From IMG/VR virus record IMGVR_UViG_3300049479_000137, positions 1 through 20,141 of that record: DNA of 20,141 nt; one strand, 5' to 3'. The notes under the pieces are model-generated. The model ran no database searches. It had not been told where the DNA came from and saw only the letters and a program-made list of their open reading frames with translations. The stretch comes from a virus. The position numbers and the translations under genes are program-made. Below, piece by piece: positions 3,743 through 13,132 of this stretch; positions within the stretch are counted from its first letter, which is position 1, and each line of letters opens with the position of its first letter.

Positions 3743-4510
3743 GTGAGCAAGCAACTGATCGTTAATTCATGGGCGAACATCAAGCAATTCATAGATGCTC
3801 GTCCTGGGTTGTCCATTCAGTATGTCGAGGGTGATTCGACATGGGAACTTGTGGCGGATGACGGATATTTTAGCGTGCAGCATACTATGCTTAAGGCCCC
3901 GACAGACCCGACAGACCTGAACGAGTTTCTTAGTGTATATAAGCCGAACGGGAATAAAAAAAGCAACTTGGATGTTACGACATCGATGGAAAGGAACGAT
4001 AAGACGCTAAGATCATTCTGCGCGTTCACTTCTACAGACGTGAATGGCGTGGCGGAGTTCGCAGTACCTGTCCCACAGCCGGGAAGGTGGATCGCCTACG
4101 GTGACGTAGAGTTTGAAACAAGGTCCTTCGGTGACTACGTCGCTGCGATAGAAATTTCAGACTTAGACAGGATGATCGCATGGCAGATGGCTTTAGCACA
4201 GGATCCTAACGCAACGGCTCCGGTAGCTGATTCGGTAGTGCAAGCTAACGGGTATCCGCTCTATCCAGTGATCGGTTACTACTATGAACGAAGCTTCCCA
4301 AGTACGATGCCAAATAACGCGAAGGGGAATATCAAGTCAGGAATGACCATGACGTTCTCCGCAGGGCATGGGCCGCCTACTGAGGCTCAGCCAGTTGGTG
4401 GTTACGGGTTCCTTCCGGGAGGATTCTACCTGGTGGTAAAAGCGCAGAAGGCGTCATCTACACAAGGGGTCAATTGCCAGCTCTCGGTGGACTGGGCTGA
4501 GGAAGAATGA
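3743..4510 (+). CDS. Hypothetical phage structural protein (255 aa)
   Basis: I do not recognise a named family. The protein begins with a GTG at 3743 preceded by AGGGCAAG. Residues ~1-70 contain SIQYVEGDSTWELVADDGYF and PTDPTDLNEFLSVYKPNGNK; the latter recalls a DFEXXYKPXANK-like stretch seen in many phage virion proteins (from memory, not verified). Residues ~90-255 look beta-rich, with aromatic and glycine-rich loops (PVIGYYYERSFP, PVGGYGFLPGGFYLVVKAQ) and a final strand NCQLSVDWAEEE, like a lectin- or jelly-roll-type binding domain. No signal peptide is present. It is last in the virion-like run and overlaps the peptidase gene by four bases (ATGA). A tail-tip or receptor-binding role is a guess from composition and position. 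Confidence 0.65.
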   Translation: MSKQLIVNSWANIKQFIDARPGLSIQYVEGDSTWELVADDGYFSVQHTMLKAPTDPTDLNEFLSVYKPNGNKKSNLDVTTSMERNDKTLRSFCAFTSTDVNGVAEFAVPVPQPGRWIAYGDVEFETRSFGDYVAAIEISDLDRMIAWQMALAQDPNATAPVADSVVQANGYPLYPVIGYYYERSFPSTMPNNAKGNIKSGMTMTFSAGHGPPTEAQPVGGYGFLPGGFYLVVKAQKASSTQGVNCQLSVDWAEEE

Positions 4511-5049
4511 AGTTCCAGCCGGGCGATATATTCTTTGTGATGCACCATGAGAACAAGATGAGCAGGCTCATCGCTTGGTTCATGAATTCTATGTGGTCAC
4601 ACTCAGGGATCATCGCGCAACAGACAGAGACAAGATCCTACACGGTGGAAACTTCCGACTTCAATGTCACCTTATCGACGCTCGAGCAGTACACGAAGGA
4701 CCCGAGGACAAGCCTAGAGGTTTGGAGGCATAGGGGCATCTCAGACAAGACAAGGGCCGAGATCGTAGAGAACGCCCTGATGCTGGATGACAAGATATTC
4801 GGATACCCTCAGTTCATATCGTTTGCCATTAGAGCTCTCTTGGCAAAGATCGGGATCAAGATCTCCCACTTCATTACTTCAGGCTACGTCTGTTGCCAGG
4901 TCCCACTTACCGGCTATGCTACCGCCGGAGTTCCAGGGTTCACAAAGGAAGAGATCAAGGCAATACACACTGAGGAGCTGTATCAGAAGGTCTCGCAAAG
5001 CCCGGACTTTTACAGATGCCTGATCAAAGCACAGGGGCAAGTGATTTAG
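4507..5049 (+). CDS. Permuted papain-fold (YiiX/NlpC-P60-like) hydrolase
   Basis: This 180-residue protein opens with KFQPGDIFFV and then WSHSGIIA, the His-first signature of circularly permuted NlpC/P60 enzymes (YiiX/YaeF-like, formerly DUF830). The expected triad is H32, E48 in YTVETSD, and a late cysteine in YVCCQVPL (C129, with C130 next to it), which matches the family's C-S-E-L-V position with CCQ. Members cleave amide or ester bonds, including peptidoglycan peptides or lipid amides. There is no signal peptide, so if it reaches the cell wall it would need a holin or would be carried on the virion. It lies between virion-like genes and terminase. It could serve in cell-wall opening at entry or lysis, or act on host lipids together with the patatin upstream; this is inference. 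Confidence 0.8.
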   Translation: MKFQPGDIFFVMHHENKMSRLIAWFMNSMWSHSGIIAQQTETRSYTVETSDFNVTLSTLEQYTKDPRTSLEVWRHRGISDKTRAEIVENALMLDDKIFGYPQFISFAIRALLAKIGIKISHFITSGYVCCQVPLTGYATAGVPGFTKEEIKAIHTEELYQKVSQSPDFYRCLIKAQGQVI

Positions 5050-5091: not shown

Positions 5092-5445
5092 ATGGCTAGG
5101 GGCAGACCACCGAAAGACATAGATCCTGATACCGTAGTAAAACTGGCGGCAATGAATTGCTCGTCTGAAGAGATCGCGGCTTGGTTCGACGTGAATAAAA
5201 AGACCATCGAGCGCAGATTTATGTCGCAGCTTATAAAAGGCAGGGCTAACGGAAGAATAAGCCTGAAAAGAAAAATGTTTGATATGGCGGTCAACGGTCA
5301 TTGCACTATGGCTATTTGGCTTTCAAAGCAGATGCTAGGATATACCGACAAAGTAGAGGAAAAGATCGATGCTTCCGTCGAAGAGAGAGTCGTTTATAAG
5401 TCCGAATGGGGGCAAGGATCCGATAGAGATAAGACCGATTCCTGA
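5092..5445 (+). CDS. Terminase small subunit-like HTH protein
   Basis: This 117-residue basic protein begins MARGRPPKD and carries a helix-turn-helix at about residues 24-43 (SSEEIAAWFDVNKKTIERRF), followed by a helical region with MFDMAVNGHCTMAIWLSKQMLGYTDK. That second block (repetitive-mass helix, then WLxKQMLGxxDK) is typical of small HTH proteins encoded immediately before a large terminase; they are thought to recognise packaging DNA and recruit the motor. The ribosome site is weak (GGAT) and lies in the inverted repeat at 5067-5090. The last residues after SEWG are read from DNA that also encodes the start of the HNH endonuclease, so the natural C-terminus may have been replaced. Its length is on the short side for TerS. 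The call rests on motif plus position. Confidence 0.78.
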   Translation: MARGRPPKDIDPDTVVKLAAMNCSSEEIAAWFDVNKKTIERRFMSQLIKGRANGRISLKRKMFDMAVNGHCTMAIWLSKQMLGYTDKVEEKIDASVEERVVYKSEWGQGSDRDKTDS

Positions 5446-5908
5446 TTGCCCAGGATATTTCGCAGCGAAGCATGGCGCTGTGCTCTCTATAAAGTCTGGG
5501 TTTGTAAAAGAGTTGTCAGCTAGATTGAACGAGGATGGGTATAAGAGAGCTACCCTCAGCGTGGATTCTGTCAGAGTAGAGTCATCGATTCATAGGCTAG
5601 TAGCTAAAACATGGCTTGGAATGCCTAAGCCCGGAGAACAGGTAAACCACAAGAACGGTATCAAGACAGACAACAGAGTAGAAAATTTAGAGTGGGTCTC
5701 TGTAAAAGAAAACAATATCCACGCTATCAATGTTCTAGGCAAGCGAAGGGGAGAAAATAACGCGCTAGCAAAACTGACTGAGGATCAAGTAAGGGCCATC
5801 AGAGCAGATACAAGAATATTGACAGAAATAGCGAAAGACTACGGCATCTACTTCAGTACAGTGCATAAAATCAAAAAACGTGAATCGTGGCGACACGTCA
5901 AAGATTAA
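5369..5908 (+). CDS. HNH homing endonuclease (NUMOD4-HNH-HTH)
   Basis: This is a 179-residue free-standing homing endonuclease. Residues ~17-36 (IEIRPIPDCPGYFAAKHGAV) are a NUMOD4-like DNA-binding segment. Residues ~72-116 hold the HNH core, with the conserved RLVAKTWLG, VNHKNGIKTDNRVENLEW and H94 as the leading histidine. Residues ~128-179 (NALAKLTEDQVRAIRAD, then DYGIYFSTVHKIKKRESW) are a C-terminal helix-turn-helix. Such enzymes cut intron- or insertion-less alleles and copy themselves into them. The ATG at 5369, eight bases after a GAGG, lies 77 bases inside the terS-like gene. The stop lies 22 bases inside the terminase gene. HNH genes beside terminase may also take part in packaging in some phages, but the NUMOD/HTH layout here fits a mobile homing gene best. 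Confidence 0.9.
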   Translation: MLPSKRESFISPNGGKDPIEIRPIPDCPGYFAAKHGAVLSIKSGFVKELSARLNEDGYKRATLSVDSVRVESSIHRLVAKTWLGMPKPGEQVNHKNGIKTDNRVENLEWVSVKENNIHAINVLGKRRGENNALAKLTEDQVRAIRADTRILTEIAKDYGIYFSTVHKIKKRESWRHVKD

Positions 5909-7209
5909 TCGAAAAAACTCTTTGCCTCTACTCTCCGCATAAGACTCAAAAGCTTTTCCATAACTCAAAGGCTAGGTACAGGGTTGTAGTTGCGGGCCGA
6001 CAGGTCGGGAAAAGCACAATGTGCAACAACGAGTTGATGTTCAAAGCATGGGAAAATCACTCGTGCAGGTATGGGTTCATTTCTCCGGTGTTCTCTCAAG
6101 GGAAAGAACAATATAGGCGAATGGTCTCGGCTATCCCAAGCGAAGTGATCAGAAAGAAACTAGATACGGAGCTAAGGATAGAACTCATAAATGGAAGCGT
6201 GATCGAGTACCTGTCCGGGGACAACCCCCACTCGTTGCGAGGTAAAACATTGAACGGGGTTGTAATAGACGAACTAAGAGATCAGGACCCTAGACTTTGG
6301 GAAATGGTCATCCGCCCTATGCTGACCACAACGACCGGATGGGCGGCGTTCGTTTCTACCCCGAATGGTTTTGACGCTTTGTATGACTTAGCCGAGCAAG
6401 CCAAGCTATGTACTGATGGGACATGGCAATTTTTCCATGCGCCATCTACTGACAACCCATCTTTCTCCATGCAAGAGTTCGAAGCCGCCAAGCAGTCTAT
6501 GTCTGAGGCAGTCTTCGCACAGGAGATACTAGCTGAGTTTAGAGATATCTCGGCTGGAAGGGCTTACATCTCAAACGGAACATGGAACCACAAGGATAGG
6601 TCCCCTTTTACTGCAGAAGGGCTTCTCTCTCCGCACCTACCAATTATAGTTGGTATGGACTTCAATGTAGGACATATGCGCTGGACTCTAGGCCAGAAGA
6701 AAGGCCCCTCTTGGTACTGGCACGATCAGATCATACTGAATGAGAGCAACACGCCAGAAGCGACACGGGCTCTGATAGAGAAGACAAAGGGCCACAAGGC
6801 AGGACTTGTCCTAATAGGCGATGCAACGGGTAACGCTAGGAAAACCGCGTCAGCCGGGGAAACTGACTACACGATTATCAGGCAGATGCTTACTGCCGCT
6901 GGGATCAGGCACGAAAATAGAACTCCTGATGTAAACCCGAGCGTCAAAGACAGAGTAAACACTGTCAATAGAAAGTTAAAGGCCGCAGATGGTTCTACGA
7001 CCATGTGGTATCACCCAGTTCAATGCCGGGATCTGAGGAGAGATCTCGAGCGCGTGGTGTGGAAAACATCAGCGGATAGCGCGATTCTGGATCAAACCGC
7101 AGACAGCTCCCTCACGCACAGCTCAGACAGCATTGGATACCCTATCATGGCGCTAGACGAAGAGGCACACCCAAGAGCCGGAGTAACCCGCGTCATCACC
7201 AGGTCTTGA
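5887..7209 (+). CDS. terL: Terminase large subunit
   Basis: This 440-residue ATPase-nuclease drives DNA into the prohead and cuts it. The N-terminal motor has a Walker A AGRQVGKST at residues 36-44 and a Walker B VVIDE ending in D128-E129. The C-terminal RNase H-like nuclease shows the three expected acidic positions: D258 in GMDFN, D312 in GDATGN and D414 in SSDSIGYP. The length is normal for a compact TerL. The GTG at 5887 lies within the HNH gene (the HNH frame there reads WRHVKD then stop), and no good ribosome site precedes it. The first nine or so residues are therefore probably derived from the HNH insertion, and the original start was lost. Translation may depend on termination of the HNH reading frame. 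It acts with the portal encoded downstream. Confidence 0.96.
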   Translation: MATRQRLIEKTLCLYSPHKTQKLFHNSKARYRVVVAGRQVGKSTMCNNELMFKAWENHSCRYGFISPVFSQGKEQYRRMVSAIPSEVIRKKLDTELRIELINGSVIEYLSGDNPHSLRGKTLNGVVIDELRDQDPRLWEMVIRPMLTTTTGWAAFVSTPNGFDALYDLAEQAKLCTDGTWQFFHAPSTDNPSFSMQEFEAAKQSMSEAVFAQEILAEFRDISAGRAYISNGTWNHKDRSPFTAEGLLSPHLPIIVGMDFNVGHMRWTLGQKKGPSWYWHDQIILNESNTPEATRALIEKTKGHKAGLVLIGDATGNARKTASAGETDYTIIRQMLTAAGIRHENRTPDVNPSVKDRVNTVNRKLKAADGSTTMWYHPVQCRDLRRDLERVVWKTSADSAILDQTADSSLTHSSDSIGYPIMALDEEAHPRAGVTRVITRS

Positions 7210-10975: not shown

Positions 10976-11348
10976 CCAGGCGGCACGCTTAGGACAGGCC
11001 GCAAGTGAAGGCGATGTACACCATCTCGAGAAGCATGGTTTCCCCACGTTTGACCAATTCCTAAAAAACCCTGAAAAATATCTAGGACACTCAGAGGAGA
11101 TACTTTCGAGCGCAGATGTTGGCTCGCACCTTCTGAGGCAGTCCAACTTAGTCAGGAAACACAAGTACGAGATTATGGGGTATCGAGTCAGCACGCTTAC
11201 AGAGGTTCAAAAGATCATGAAGGATCATGGGATCAACCCAAGGACCGTTGATCTGCGTCCTCAGATCCAGCCATTAGGCGGTGGGCAGTGTGATATCCTT
11301 GTGAAGTTCACGACCAGAGAGGAGCGCGAACATCGCGCGGGATGGTAG
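10965..11348 (+). CDS. Hypothetical protein between portal and protease
   Basis: I do not recognise this 127-residue protein. The frame is open upstream to 10824, but that part lies entirely inside the portal gene and encodes low-complexity Leu/Arg-rich sequence. The ATG at 10965, just after AAGGATCAGA, is therefore chosen; it overlaps the portal stop by 11 bases. The protein is helical and His-containing in its first half (GDVHHLEKHGFPTFDQFLKNPEKY) and ends in a small alpha/beta-like region (EVQKIMKDHGINPRTVDLRPQIQPLGGGQCDILVKF). No membrane segment or catalytic motif is apparent. The stop overlaps the protease start (ATGGTAG), so the three genes are coupled. A head-assembly accessory role fits the place only. 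Confidence 0.7.
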   Translation: MESNQAARLGQAASEGDVHHLEKHGFPTFDQFLKNPEKYLGHSEEILSSADVGSHLLRQSNLVRKHKYEIMGYRVSTLTEVQKIMKDHGINPRTVDLRPQIQPLGGGQCDILVKFTTREEREHRAGW

Positions 11349-13132
11349 CAATGCCAAGCTGGGTCAAGAATGAACCGAAGTGGGACAAGGCGAAGAAGGC
11401 CGCTGGTAAATCAGGGGCCGATGACTTCTATGCGCTTGTGACCCATATCTACAAGAAAATGGGCGGTAAGATCAAGAAGGCCGAAGCAGATGACTCCGGC
11501 ATTCGCGTGCCTGTTTGGTTTTGGGGTGCTGACTCCTTTCCGAAAGGATCCACTCCTGGGCCAGCGCAGAAGGCTAAGCCTTCCAAACCAGAGGGATCTG
11601 GTGATGCATACGAGCTGGCCCAATCTTACCTGCTCAAGACGCCTGAGATGTCTGGAGCTACCTTGCTGAACACATTGAAGGCAAACGGCATCGAGCTGAC
11701 GAAACGAGAGCTCGAGTCTGATTCATCGTCGTCTGTTGCAAAGGGTATCCTTGCATCTGAGAGCGAGAAAGTTAGGCCGTCAGGATCTATCCTCACCTAT
11801 AGCGCACATGCCAAGTTCTTCGAAGGGACCGGGGCTAGAGACAACGGGATTGGATTCACACGGTTTCGTGTCGCCCTGATCCAAGAAGGCATGGGCAATC
11901 TTAACGACGCTTATTACTACACTAGGCAGGCTCTCGAGAGCGCGGTCCCGGTCTTCGAAGGGAAGAAAGCTTACGCTGATCACCCTTCGGAGATCGATGA
12001 GCAGTCCAGGCCAGAGAGATCAATCCGTGACGTGGTAGGGCATTTCGAGAATCTCAAGATCGAAGAGGGGGATCAGGGCCAGGCGATGCTCTGCGGTGAT
12101 TTGGTCATCCTACCAGACAAGGACTACGAATGGGTCCGTGGACTTGCACGCCACGCAGTTGACTACGGGAAGAAATACCCAGACAAAGAATTCATTGGCT
12201 TGTCTATCAACGCGACGGGTGACGCTAACCCAATGCCTGTCGAGCAGTTCCTGAAGGAGCAGACGGTTCCTGAAGGGTCTAGGCCGAAGTTACTCAAGGC
12301 CATGGACGAAGGCATCCAAGAGTTGAAAGTGGTTAGCACGATTTCTGACGCAATAAGTTGTGACCTTGTTACTGAACCAGGTGCCAAGGGGAAGGTTCTC
12401 GAACTACTCGAAGGAGACGAAATGAAGAAGAAAGTTAAGGAAGCCGAAGAGAAGAAGGAAGCCGCCCCGGAAGGCCACGATGACGCTGCGGCTGACATGA
12501 AACTCATCATGGACATGCTGAAAAAGCATGGTCTAGTTGGAGAAGAGGCCGAGGAGGGAGAGTGCAAGGACCTCGGCGGCAAGATGAAGCAGGCGATCGA
12601 AGCCTACAAGGAGATGGGTTACTCAGAAGAGGAAGCCGAAGCTGCCGCTGGACACGCCATGAAGCTGGCTAAGCACATGGCTGGAAAGCAATCCGAAGGC
12701 GAGGAAAAGCCAGAGGACGAAGAGAAGGAAGAGAACGAAGAGAAAAAGGAAGCCGAAGAGGCTGAAGAAAAGAAAGAAGCCGAGGAGAAGAAGGAGTCTG
12801 AGTACAAGGCTCTTTACCTCAAGGCCAAGGGTGAGCTCGTTGCTCTGAAAGAAAAGGATGCTGCCAATAGTTTGGCGGCCCACATCGACGCGAAGCTTTC
12901 AGAGAGCAAGCTTCCGATGAAGGTTACCAAGCAGTTCAAGGAAAGCCTTGGGAAAGTGAAGACGGCTGAGGAATTCGACCGTGCCTTCGCTTTGTTCATG
13001 GAAGGATACAAGATGTCGGCCACTACGGGCGGTGAGGCCCATATGTCGCTTGTATTCGTGGAAACTGAGAAACACAGCGAGCCGAGCCAGAAGGGCCTCA
13101 ATCTCGCAGCGTGTCTCGCTAACGACGAATAA
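11342..13132 (+). CDS. Prohead maturation protease fused to scaffold
   Basis: This 596-residue protein has three parts. Residues ~1-45 (PSWVKNEPKWDKAKKAAGKS, then FYALVTHIYKKMGGKI) form a small helical domain often found at the start of phage head or structural proteins. Residues ~145-355 are the serine protease: H214 in YADHPSE, the block RPERSIRDVVGHFENL, and S288 in GLSINATG, the His and Ser positions of Mu I-like/U35 phage maturation proteases. Residues ~361-596 are a very acidic, Glu/Lys-rich coiled-coil scaffold with a structured C-terminal end. The protease would cleave scaffold and capsid N-termini once the prohead is complete. The ATG at 11342 and one at 11351 are both possible starts. 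An internal start at 12422 probably yields free scaffold. Confidence 0.88.
   Translation: MVAMPSWVKNEPKWDKAKKAAGKSGADDFYALVTHIYKKMGGKIKKAEADDSGIRVPVWFWGADSFPKGSTPGPAQKAKPSKPEGSGDAYELAQSYLLKTPEMSGATLLNTLKANGIELTKRELESDSSSSVAKGILASESEKVRPSGSILTYSAHAKFFEGTGARDNGIGFTRFRVALIQEGMGNLNDAYYYTRQALESAVPVFEGKKAYADHPSEIDEQSRPERSIRDVVGHFENLKIEEGDQGQAMLCGDLVILPDKDYEWVRGLARHAVDYGKKYPDKEFIGLSINATGDANPMPVEQFLKEQTVPEGSRPKLLKAMDEGIQELKVVSTISDAISCDLVTEPGAKGKVLELLEGDEMKKKVKEAEEKKEAAPEGHDDAAADMKLIMDMLKKHGLVGEEAEEGECKDLGGKMKQAIEAYKEMGYSEEEAEAAAGHAMKLAKHMAGKQSEGEEKPEDEEKEENEEKKEAEEAEEKKEAEEKKESEYKALYLKAKGELVALKEKDAANSLAAHIDAKLSESKLPMKVTKQFKESLGKVKTAEEFDRAFALFMEGYKMSATTGGEAHMSLVFVETEKHSEPSQKGLNLAACLANDE
12411..12416 (+). 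promoter_or_regulatory. Internal Shine-Dalgarno for free scaffold
   Basis: AAGGAG lies inside the protease-scaffold gene, five bases before an in-frame ATG at 12422. The match and spacing are as good as those of the decoration and capsid genes downstream (AAGGAG, seven-base spacers), and it falls exactly at the boundary between the protease and scaffold parts. It also encodes Glu-Gly, so chance cannot be excluded. Confidence 0.6.
12422..13132 (+). CDS. Predicted free scaffolding protein from internal start
   Basis: An in-frame ATG (codon 361 of the protease-scaffold gene) with AAGGAG five bases upstream would give a separate 236-residue protein. It would start MKKKVKEAEEKKEAAPEG and contain the whole acidic coiled-coil region, including the Glu/Lys-only stretch at about 12700-12800, and the C-terminal helix bundle (KLPMKVTKQFKESLGKVKTAEEFDRAF region). 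In lambda the scaffold Nu3 is made in just this way from within protease gene C, in the same frame and sharing its C-terminus. This allows many scaffolds per protease. The sequence shows the ribosome site and domain boundary; that it is used is inference. Confidence 0.62.
   Translation: MKKKVKEAEEKKEAAPEGHDDAAADMKLIMDMLKKHGLVGEEAEEGECKDLGGKMKQAIEAYKEMGYSEEEAEAAAGHAMKLAKHMAGKQSEGEEKPEDEEKEENEEKKEAEEAEEKKEAEEKKESEYKALYLKAKGELVALKEKDAANSLAAHIDAKLSESKLPMKVTKQFKESLGKVKTAEEFDRAFALFMEGYKMSATTGGEAHMSLVFVETEKHSEPSQKGLNLAACLANDE

Follow-up and report, generated by a model that had tools for sequence, protein, structure and literature searches.

An HNH homing endonuclease gene that probably replaced the stop/start pair of the terS-terL junction in an uncultured virus

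The junction between the two terminase genes of an uncultured virus (IMG/VR record IMGVR_UViG_3300049479_000137) has probably been entered by a free-standing, I-HmuI-like HNH homing endonuclease gene, which would have replaced the stop/start pair of the junction. The window, meaning the whole stretch of DNA analysed, is 20,141 bases long and is identical with the record; it holds a head and packaging module of terS, HNH and terL genes followed by genes for a metallophosphoesterase, a Mu-F-like head protein (with a weak Pfam score), a portal protein and a Mu gpT-like capsid protein. The endonuclease gene is proposed to have entered a terS-terL junction of the kind found in most relatives, a tight or overlapping stop/start of the ATGA type, and we infer that the insertion broke this old pair and replaced both of its members.

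Layout of the locus and family of the HNH gene

The features of the terS-HNH-terL region described here lie on the plus strand. The terS-like gene (5092..5445, 117 aa) is conserved through a W-G motif at 5407-5412 and its profile support is weak (phrog_309, E 0.001), while its relatives abut terL and immediately precede it in 27/36 junctions. The HNH gene (5369..5908, 179 aa) has a homologous part of about 5426-5905, and terL (5887..7209, 440 aa), which matches PF03237 and phrog_2 (E 8e-36), carries a conserved LxLYxPH motif from 5920. A preliminary description of the sequence had placed the start of the HNH frame 77 bases inside terS and its end 22 bases inside terL, and the open-reading-frame list confirms these coordinates exactly, with overlaps at 5369-5445 and 5887-5908. 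Judged by homology, the overlaps are not chance frames, because HNH homology begins before terS ends and continues as far as the HNH stop. Elsewhere in the window, a patatin-like phospholipase fragment or gene (39-773) and a YiiX/C92 amidase-like protein (4507-5049) are encoded near the packaging genes, and short tandem repeats at 12712-12801 encode a Glu/Lys-rich stretch of a protein at 11342-13132 for which no Pfam match was found.

The encoded endonuclease belongs to PF13392, HNH_3 (E 3e-11, 43.2 bits against a curated cut-off of 24.8), with the domain at residues 74-116 (5588..5716), and to phrog_59 (E 6e-39). Its core residues (HRLV, VNH.xG.K.xN and N), some of which have catalytic roles, are invariant across the window, two loci with related HNH genes at the same junction (L094 and L101) and a fourth locus from another terminase lineage (L307). 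The only solved relative found is 1u3e (E 4.4e-17, profile positions 6-126), a match labelled HNH homing endonuclease that we take to be I-HmuI. I-HmuI is likewise an HNH homing endonuclease, homologous to the one in the window, but it is intron-encoded, whereas the window gene matches no intron family. A group I intron or other RNA element was considered and rejected, as no Rfam family matched. The gene thus lies outside any intron, and together with the occupied and empty alleles and the lateral movement set out below this marks it as a probable free-standing homing endonuclease gene. Homing activity itself is inferred from family and distribution; the enzyme is predicted to spread by cutting HNH-less terS-terL junctions, into which repair would then copy the gene.

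Replaced signals at terL, terS and the HNH gene

The start of terL is the GTG at 5887..5889, formed by the last base of a Ser codon and the TG of HNH Trp174 (TGG, 5888-5890). A TGA at 5881..5883 closes the terL frame upstream, and this GTG is the sole ATG, GTG or TTG ahead of the ATP-binding core of TerL. The first seven TerL codons (MATRQRL, 5887-5907) lie wholly within the HNH gene. The C-terminal end of the endonuclease over this stretch, SWRHVKD, fits the family profile, and its TAA stop (5906..5908) aligns with the position at which native TerL proteins start. In the window, L094 and L101, TerL starts 33, 27 and 21 nt, respectively, before the LxLYxPH anchor, in every case inside the HNH gene and at the same place, where any base followed by TGG at the conserved HNH Trp codon gives an NTG start (tcGTGGcga, agATGGgct and tcTTGGcac). 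It is the only ATG, GTG or TTG before the conserved part of TerL in all three, the next in-frame start being 132, 126 and 120 nt downstream. Among 27 empty junctions of relatives, the TerL start lies exactly 12 nt before the anchor in 18 and at another distance in nine, mostly through longer TerL N-termini (in L255 the start codon tallied is the anchor itself and the likely start is 30 nt before it), and for this reason an extended TerL N-terminus is not diagnostic by itself. With a sole available start in the window and the same Trp-codon start in L094 and L101, the case that the TerL start was rewritten from HNH DNA is strong, and TerL would now start at the NTG of the conserved C-terminal Trp codon of the endonuclease.

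The GTG at 5887 has no Shine-Dalgarno-like sequence (duplex +0.6), and the column of the native start is now the ATC at 5908. Both points would fit a terL that starts at a non-canonical codon, such as the ATC at 5884 or 5908, with the GTG incidental. ATC is not among the usual start codons, however, and an NTG at the same Trp codon recurs in L094, L101 and L307, where it is preceded by a Shine-Dalgarno-like match better than 87-92% of HNH-gene positions; we regard a non-canonical start as very unlikely. Translation of the window's TerL from the Trp-codon GTG probably depends on ribosomes that terminate at the HNH stop and then reinitiate.

On the terS side, profile confidence for TerS drops beyond W-G and confidence for the HNH family begins at about 5426, and the border between native terS DNA and HNH DNA is accordingly placed, from profile posteriors and the I-HmuI alignment, in the uncertain interval 5413..5425. 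The conserved part of the endonuclease had been put near 5417; it does begin inside terS, though slightly later. Three PHROG profiles begin at HNH residue 20-21, a profile of 71 further HNHs extends back to 5414 but is confident only from about 5426, and residue 2 of I-HmuI aligns with the codon at 5426. With HNH homology from about 5426, the terS stop (TGA, 5443..5445) lies inside HNH-homologous DNA, and there is good sequence evidence that this stop and the last ~6 TerS residues (RDKTDS) are HNH DNA read out of frame. TerS would therefore end ~6 residues into endonuclease DNA, rather than the ~10 first described, since the QGSD before RDKTDS falls in the uncertain border zone and may be native. 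That the insertion supplied both a stop codon and a new GTG start, as had been proposed, is supported by the position of the terS stop and by the sole start at 5887.

A different reading is that both termini are native, and that the HNH gene was inserted without replacing anything and its N-terminus merely overprinted terS. After W-G, TerS has a variable tail in every relative, and the 10 residues of the window are of normal length (7-16 in measurable empty junctions); the window tail WGQGSDRDKTDS resembles the native WGNAQEPDKKDS of the HNH-less locus L237 in length and end, so it could be partly native. In L101, moreover, the TerS tail is common to the HNH-less relative L104 (NGATVE.KEEGH), and the match runs through TGATG, which indicates that in L101 the HNH gene entered after an intact, retained stop and that rewriting of TerS is not obligatory. 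Native ends are nevertheless improbable for the window, as homology to the HNH family and I-HmuI crosses the terS stop, TerL begins with seven codons inside a gene whose own SWRHVKD end is that of its family, and neither terminus is common to any relative: GSDRDKTDS and ATRQRLIE were absent from all 310 other loci, though no close relative of the window is among these. Since no relative has a fixed tail, either in length or in sequence, the piece of TerS that we think was rewritten is dispensable.

The exchange with terS appears to have been mutual, because the first ~18 residues of the endonuclease are terS DNA in another frame and its ATG is borrowed. The ATA at 5423..5425 occupies the column of the family's start Met, by a one-residue extrapolation from Met1 of I-HmuI, and may be the lost ATG start. 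No ATG, GTG or TTG lies between it and the ATG at 5369..5371, which is the sole such codon upstream of the conserved core and belongs to native terS DNA in a different frame, so the HNH gene must start inside terS. An AGAGGA at 5355..5360, also inside terS and 8 nt upstream of this ATG, is Shine-Dalgarno-like (duplex -6.0, equalled or bettered at 7.9% of terS positions). Having apparently lost its own start (ATA for ATG), the endonuclease would thus use an ATG and a ribosome-binding site that belong to terS.

The junction among relatives and the history of the insertion

Window proteins had no close relative among GenBank phages or plasmids; in these sets TerL relatives reached only about 35% identity or less, which made them useless for junction comparison, and HNH searches returned general HNHs only. 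Single-sequence scans of viral_contigs gave no TerL, two TerS and three HNH relatives, a yield so small that profile scans were required. Those of IMG/VR recovered a TerL family at about 45-60% identity, while the genome_contigs scan gave TerLs at 39% or less only. The collections searched contained no HNH-less locus closely related to the window, and since the nearest HNH-less TerLs are only ~47-60% identical to that of the window at the protein level, its own exact empty site was not found.

The junction was surveyed in 44 loci, one per contig with duplicates of a contig dropped (L259-L295, at 33% or less, L106-L125 and L126-L137 were omitted), and it was counted in the 36 with a readable terS stop and TerL anchor. 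It was empty in 27/36, held an HNH gene of the same clade in 3/36 (the window, L094 and L101) and held other cargo in 6/36. HNH-less relatives of the kind that the preliminary description had called for were thus available; in the empty ones TerS continues past W-G into a different tail and TerL starts a few residues before LxLYxPH. In the empty junctions terS and terL abut or overlap, and the distance between terS stop and TerL anchor is -5 to +22 nt in 26 of the 27; in the exception, L242, it is 61 nt, owing to a longer TerL N-terminus.

The other cargo consisted of DNA methyltransferases in L239 and L252, a 196-aa phrog_12600 protein in L100 and small ORFs in L104 and L235/L236. Of these, L100, L104 and L239 keep the usual TerL start and L252 keeps the start of its relative L238, which argues that replacement of the start is typical of HNH insertions and not of any insertion. 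Several of these loci have features of their own. The methyltransferase genes (L239 1779-3017; L252 1704-2999) occupy a junction that is empty in L237 and in L238/L255, respectively; terL DNA of L239 and L237 is 95.7% identical, and in L239 the old terL ATGA was kept and the terS stop rebuilt. The small hydrophobic ORF between terS and terL of L104 (3345-3510) is bounded by two copies of GGGACATTGA, one of which supplies the terS stop and the other the TTG start of terL, and the phrog_12600 gene of L100 (2914-3504) has GTGA and ATGA overlaps with terS and terL. Separately, TerS of L225 (2607-3023) has an N-terminal part unlike the others and keeps the C-terminal motif IVYIAEWGS, which suggests that this motif may be a contact site and that a DNA-binding domain was swapped.

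The same survey bears on whether the HNH protein could be a packaging accessory nuclease of the HK97 gp74 or GVE2 type, needed with TerS and TerL and not a homing enzyme. Its place between terS and terL, with which it is probably co-translated, would suit such a role, and HK97-type HNHs act with terminase (as described in the text available of PMC10448857). A packaging HNH was, however, rejected on presence/absence, as constant presence at the terS-terL junction was not found: this junction has no HNH in 33/36 loci, whereas a GVE2-like HNH is reported in 89/89 Skunavirus genomes, between terL and portal (accessible portion of PMC12724721). The family, HNH_3 and I-HmuI-like, also points elsewhere, and there is very little chance that this role is the right one. 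HK97 gp74 and the GVE2 HNH resemble the window gene in adjoining the terminase genes; the available portions of the literature present them as constant components of the packaging module, and the window HNH differs in its patchy occurrence and I-HmuI-like family.

In a tree of 74 of the 83 HNH loci among the matches listed (L138 repeats the contig of L101), the HNHs of the window, L094 and L101 formed one clade (98/93), within which the window and L101 grouped together (95/86), again among the matches listed. The scan was seeded with these three HNHs, so that the clade test, among the matches listed, is not fully independent. The TerL tree (27 rows, after removal of five near-identical rows and short ones) rejected one clade for the three HNH hosts (AU p 3.4e-6) and placed L101 beside the empty L228 (100/100). 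A TerL clade of the window and L094 was not rejected (p 0.067), and the window has a long TerL branch of unsure position. A single HNH clade, hosts that do not form one clade, and an occupied locus beside an empty one together indicate lateral movement into the same site. A single ancient insertion, passed on by descent and since lost from most lineages, with the Trp-codon start fixed once, would account for the single clade of HNHs (among the matches listed) and for their common start position. This history is unlikely, although it is the least so of the alternatives weighed here: TerL rejects the clade it calls for, the sister of L101 is empty, L307 repeats this start in a separate terminase lineage, and many precise losses would be required.

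Comparison with known systems and the generality of the Trp-codon start

A terS-HNH-terL layout is of a known kind, because an insertion hotspot at this junction, overlaps between homing endonuclease genes and their neighbours, and homing genes near terminases have each been documented in the available parts of PMC4190342, PMC2988022 and PMC10448857. The terS-terL region of lactococcal 936 phages is a hotspot that holds an HNH gene in phi15 and methyltransferases in others (PMC4190342, in the part available). In phi15 (Skunavirus, KM091442), as in the window, the HNH gene lies directly between terS and terL and its start overlaps the terS stop (753 v. 756; same source, same part). Unlike that of the window, the phi15 HNH lacks the Trp motif at its C-terminus, and the annotated terL begins at an ATG of its own 10 nt beyond the HNH gene, from which it follows that start donation is not universal. 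According to the accessible text of PMC2988022, the free-standing T4 homing genes mobE, mobA, mobC and segC have ORFs that overlap with the gene before them (UAAUGA; 20-24 bp), and an insertion of mobE in Aeh1 splits the essential nrdA, which still works. The window is similar in that the homing ORF overlaps its upstream gene and the insertion affects essential genes that would still work; it differs in using a two-gene junction and in drawing the downstream start from a conserved codon of the endonuclease. Homing genes have been described as clustering by terminase genes (PMC10448857, in part), and in a cryoconite phage methyltransferases vary in the DNA packaging module, as far as the portion of that report available goes. 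Other cargo at the terS-terL junction beyond lactococcal phages was not found in the accessible parts of the open-access literature searched, and neither were Trp-codon start donation by a homing gene and mutual borrowing of signals between such a gene and its neighbours in the open-access literature searched.

A scan for the HNH tail recovered L307 (965-3462), a terS-HNH-terL arrangement in another terminase lineage. Its TerS is of a different family (phrog_4102, E 4e-33), its TerL is distant, with phage matches at only about 26-30% identity, and its HNH gene begins directly after the terS TAA; the only early start of TerL is again GTGG at the HNH Trp codon. Among 72 distinct HNH ORFs recognised in 95 loci, the tail Trp was present in 58, an ATG, GTG or TTG was formed there in 47 of the 58, and the resulting frame stayed open for at least 60 codons past the HNH stop in 12 of the 47. 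Only four of the 12 lacked an alternative start within 100 nt, and each of these is a terS-HNH-terL locus (the window, L094, L101 and L307). In the remaining eight the true start is likely one that lies closer to the HNH stop, and with such nearer alternatives elsewhere no general claim of Trp-start use by HNH genes is made. A narrower proposal is that the (K/R/G)x(S/T/R)WxH tail of these HNHs might serve as a built-in start for any downstream gene, as N followed by TGG yields NTG and the basic or Gly codons often make a purine run like a ribosome-binding site. Such a tail might allow entry between terS and terL without silencing terL, and might have arisen more than once, in the window, L094 and L101 and independently in L307. 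We put this forward tentatively, with more doubt than confidence.

If the proposed history is right, a selfish endonuclease has entered the tightest kind of gene junction, the stop/start overlap of two genes essential for packaging, and the phage has survived. It would be tolerated there through a set of loans: the HNH gene provides one neighbour with a stop and the other with a start, and takes its own start from the first. Should the Trp-codon start prove general in this class of HNH, it would help to explain how such genes are tolerated beside essential genes, and it would bear on the calling of gene starts in phage genomes.
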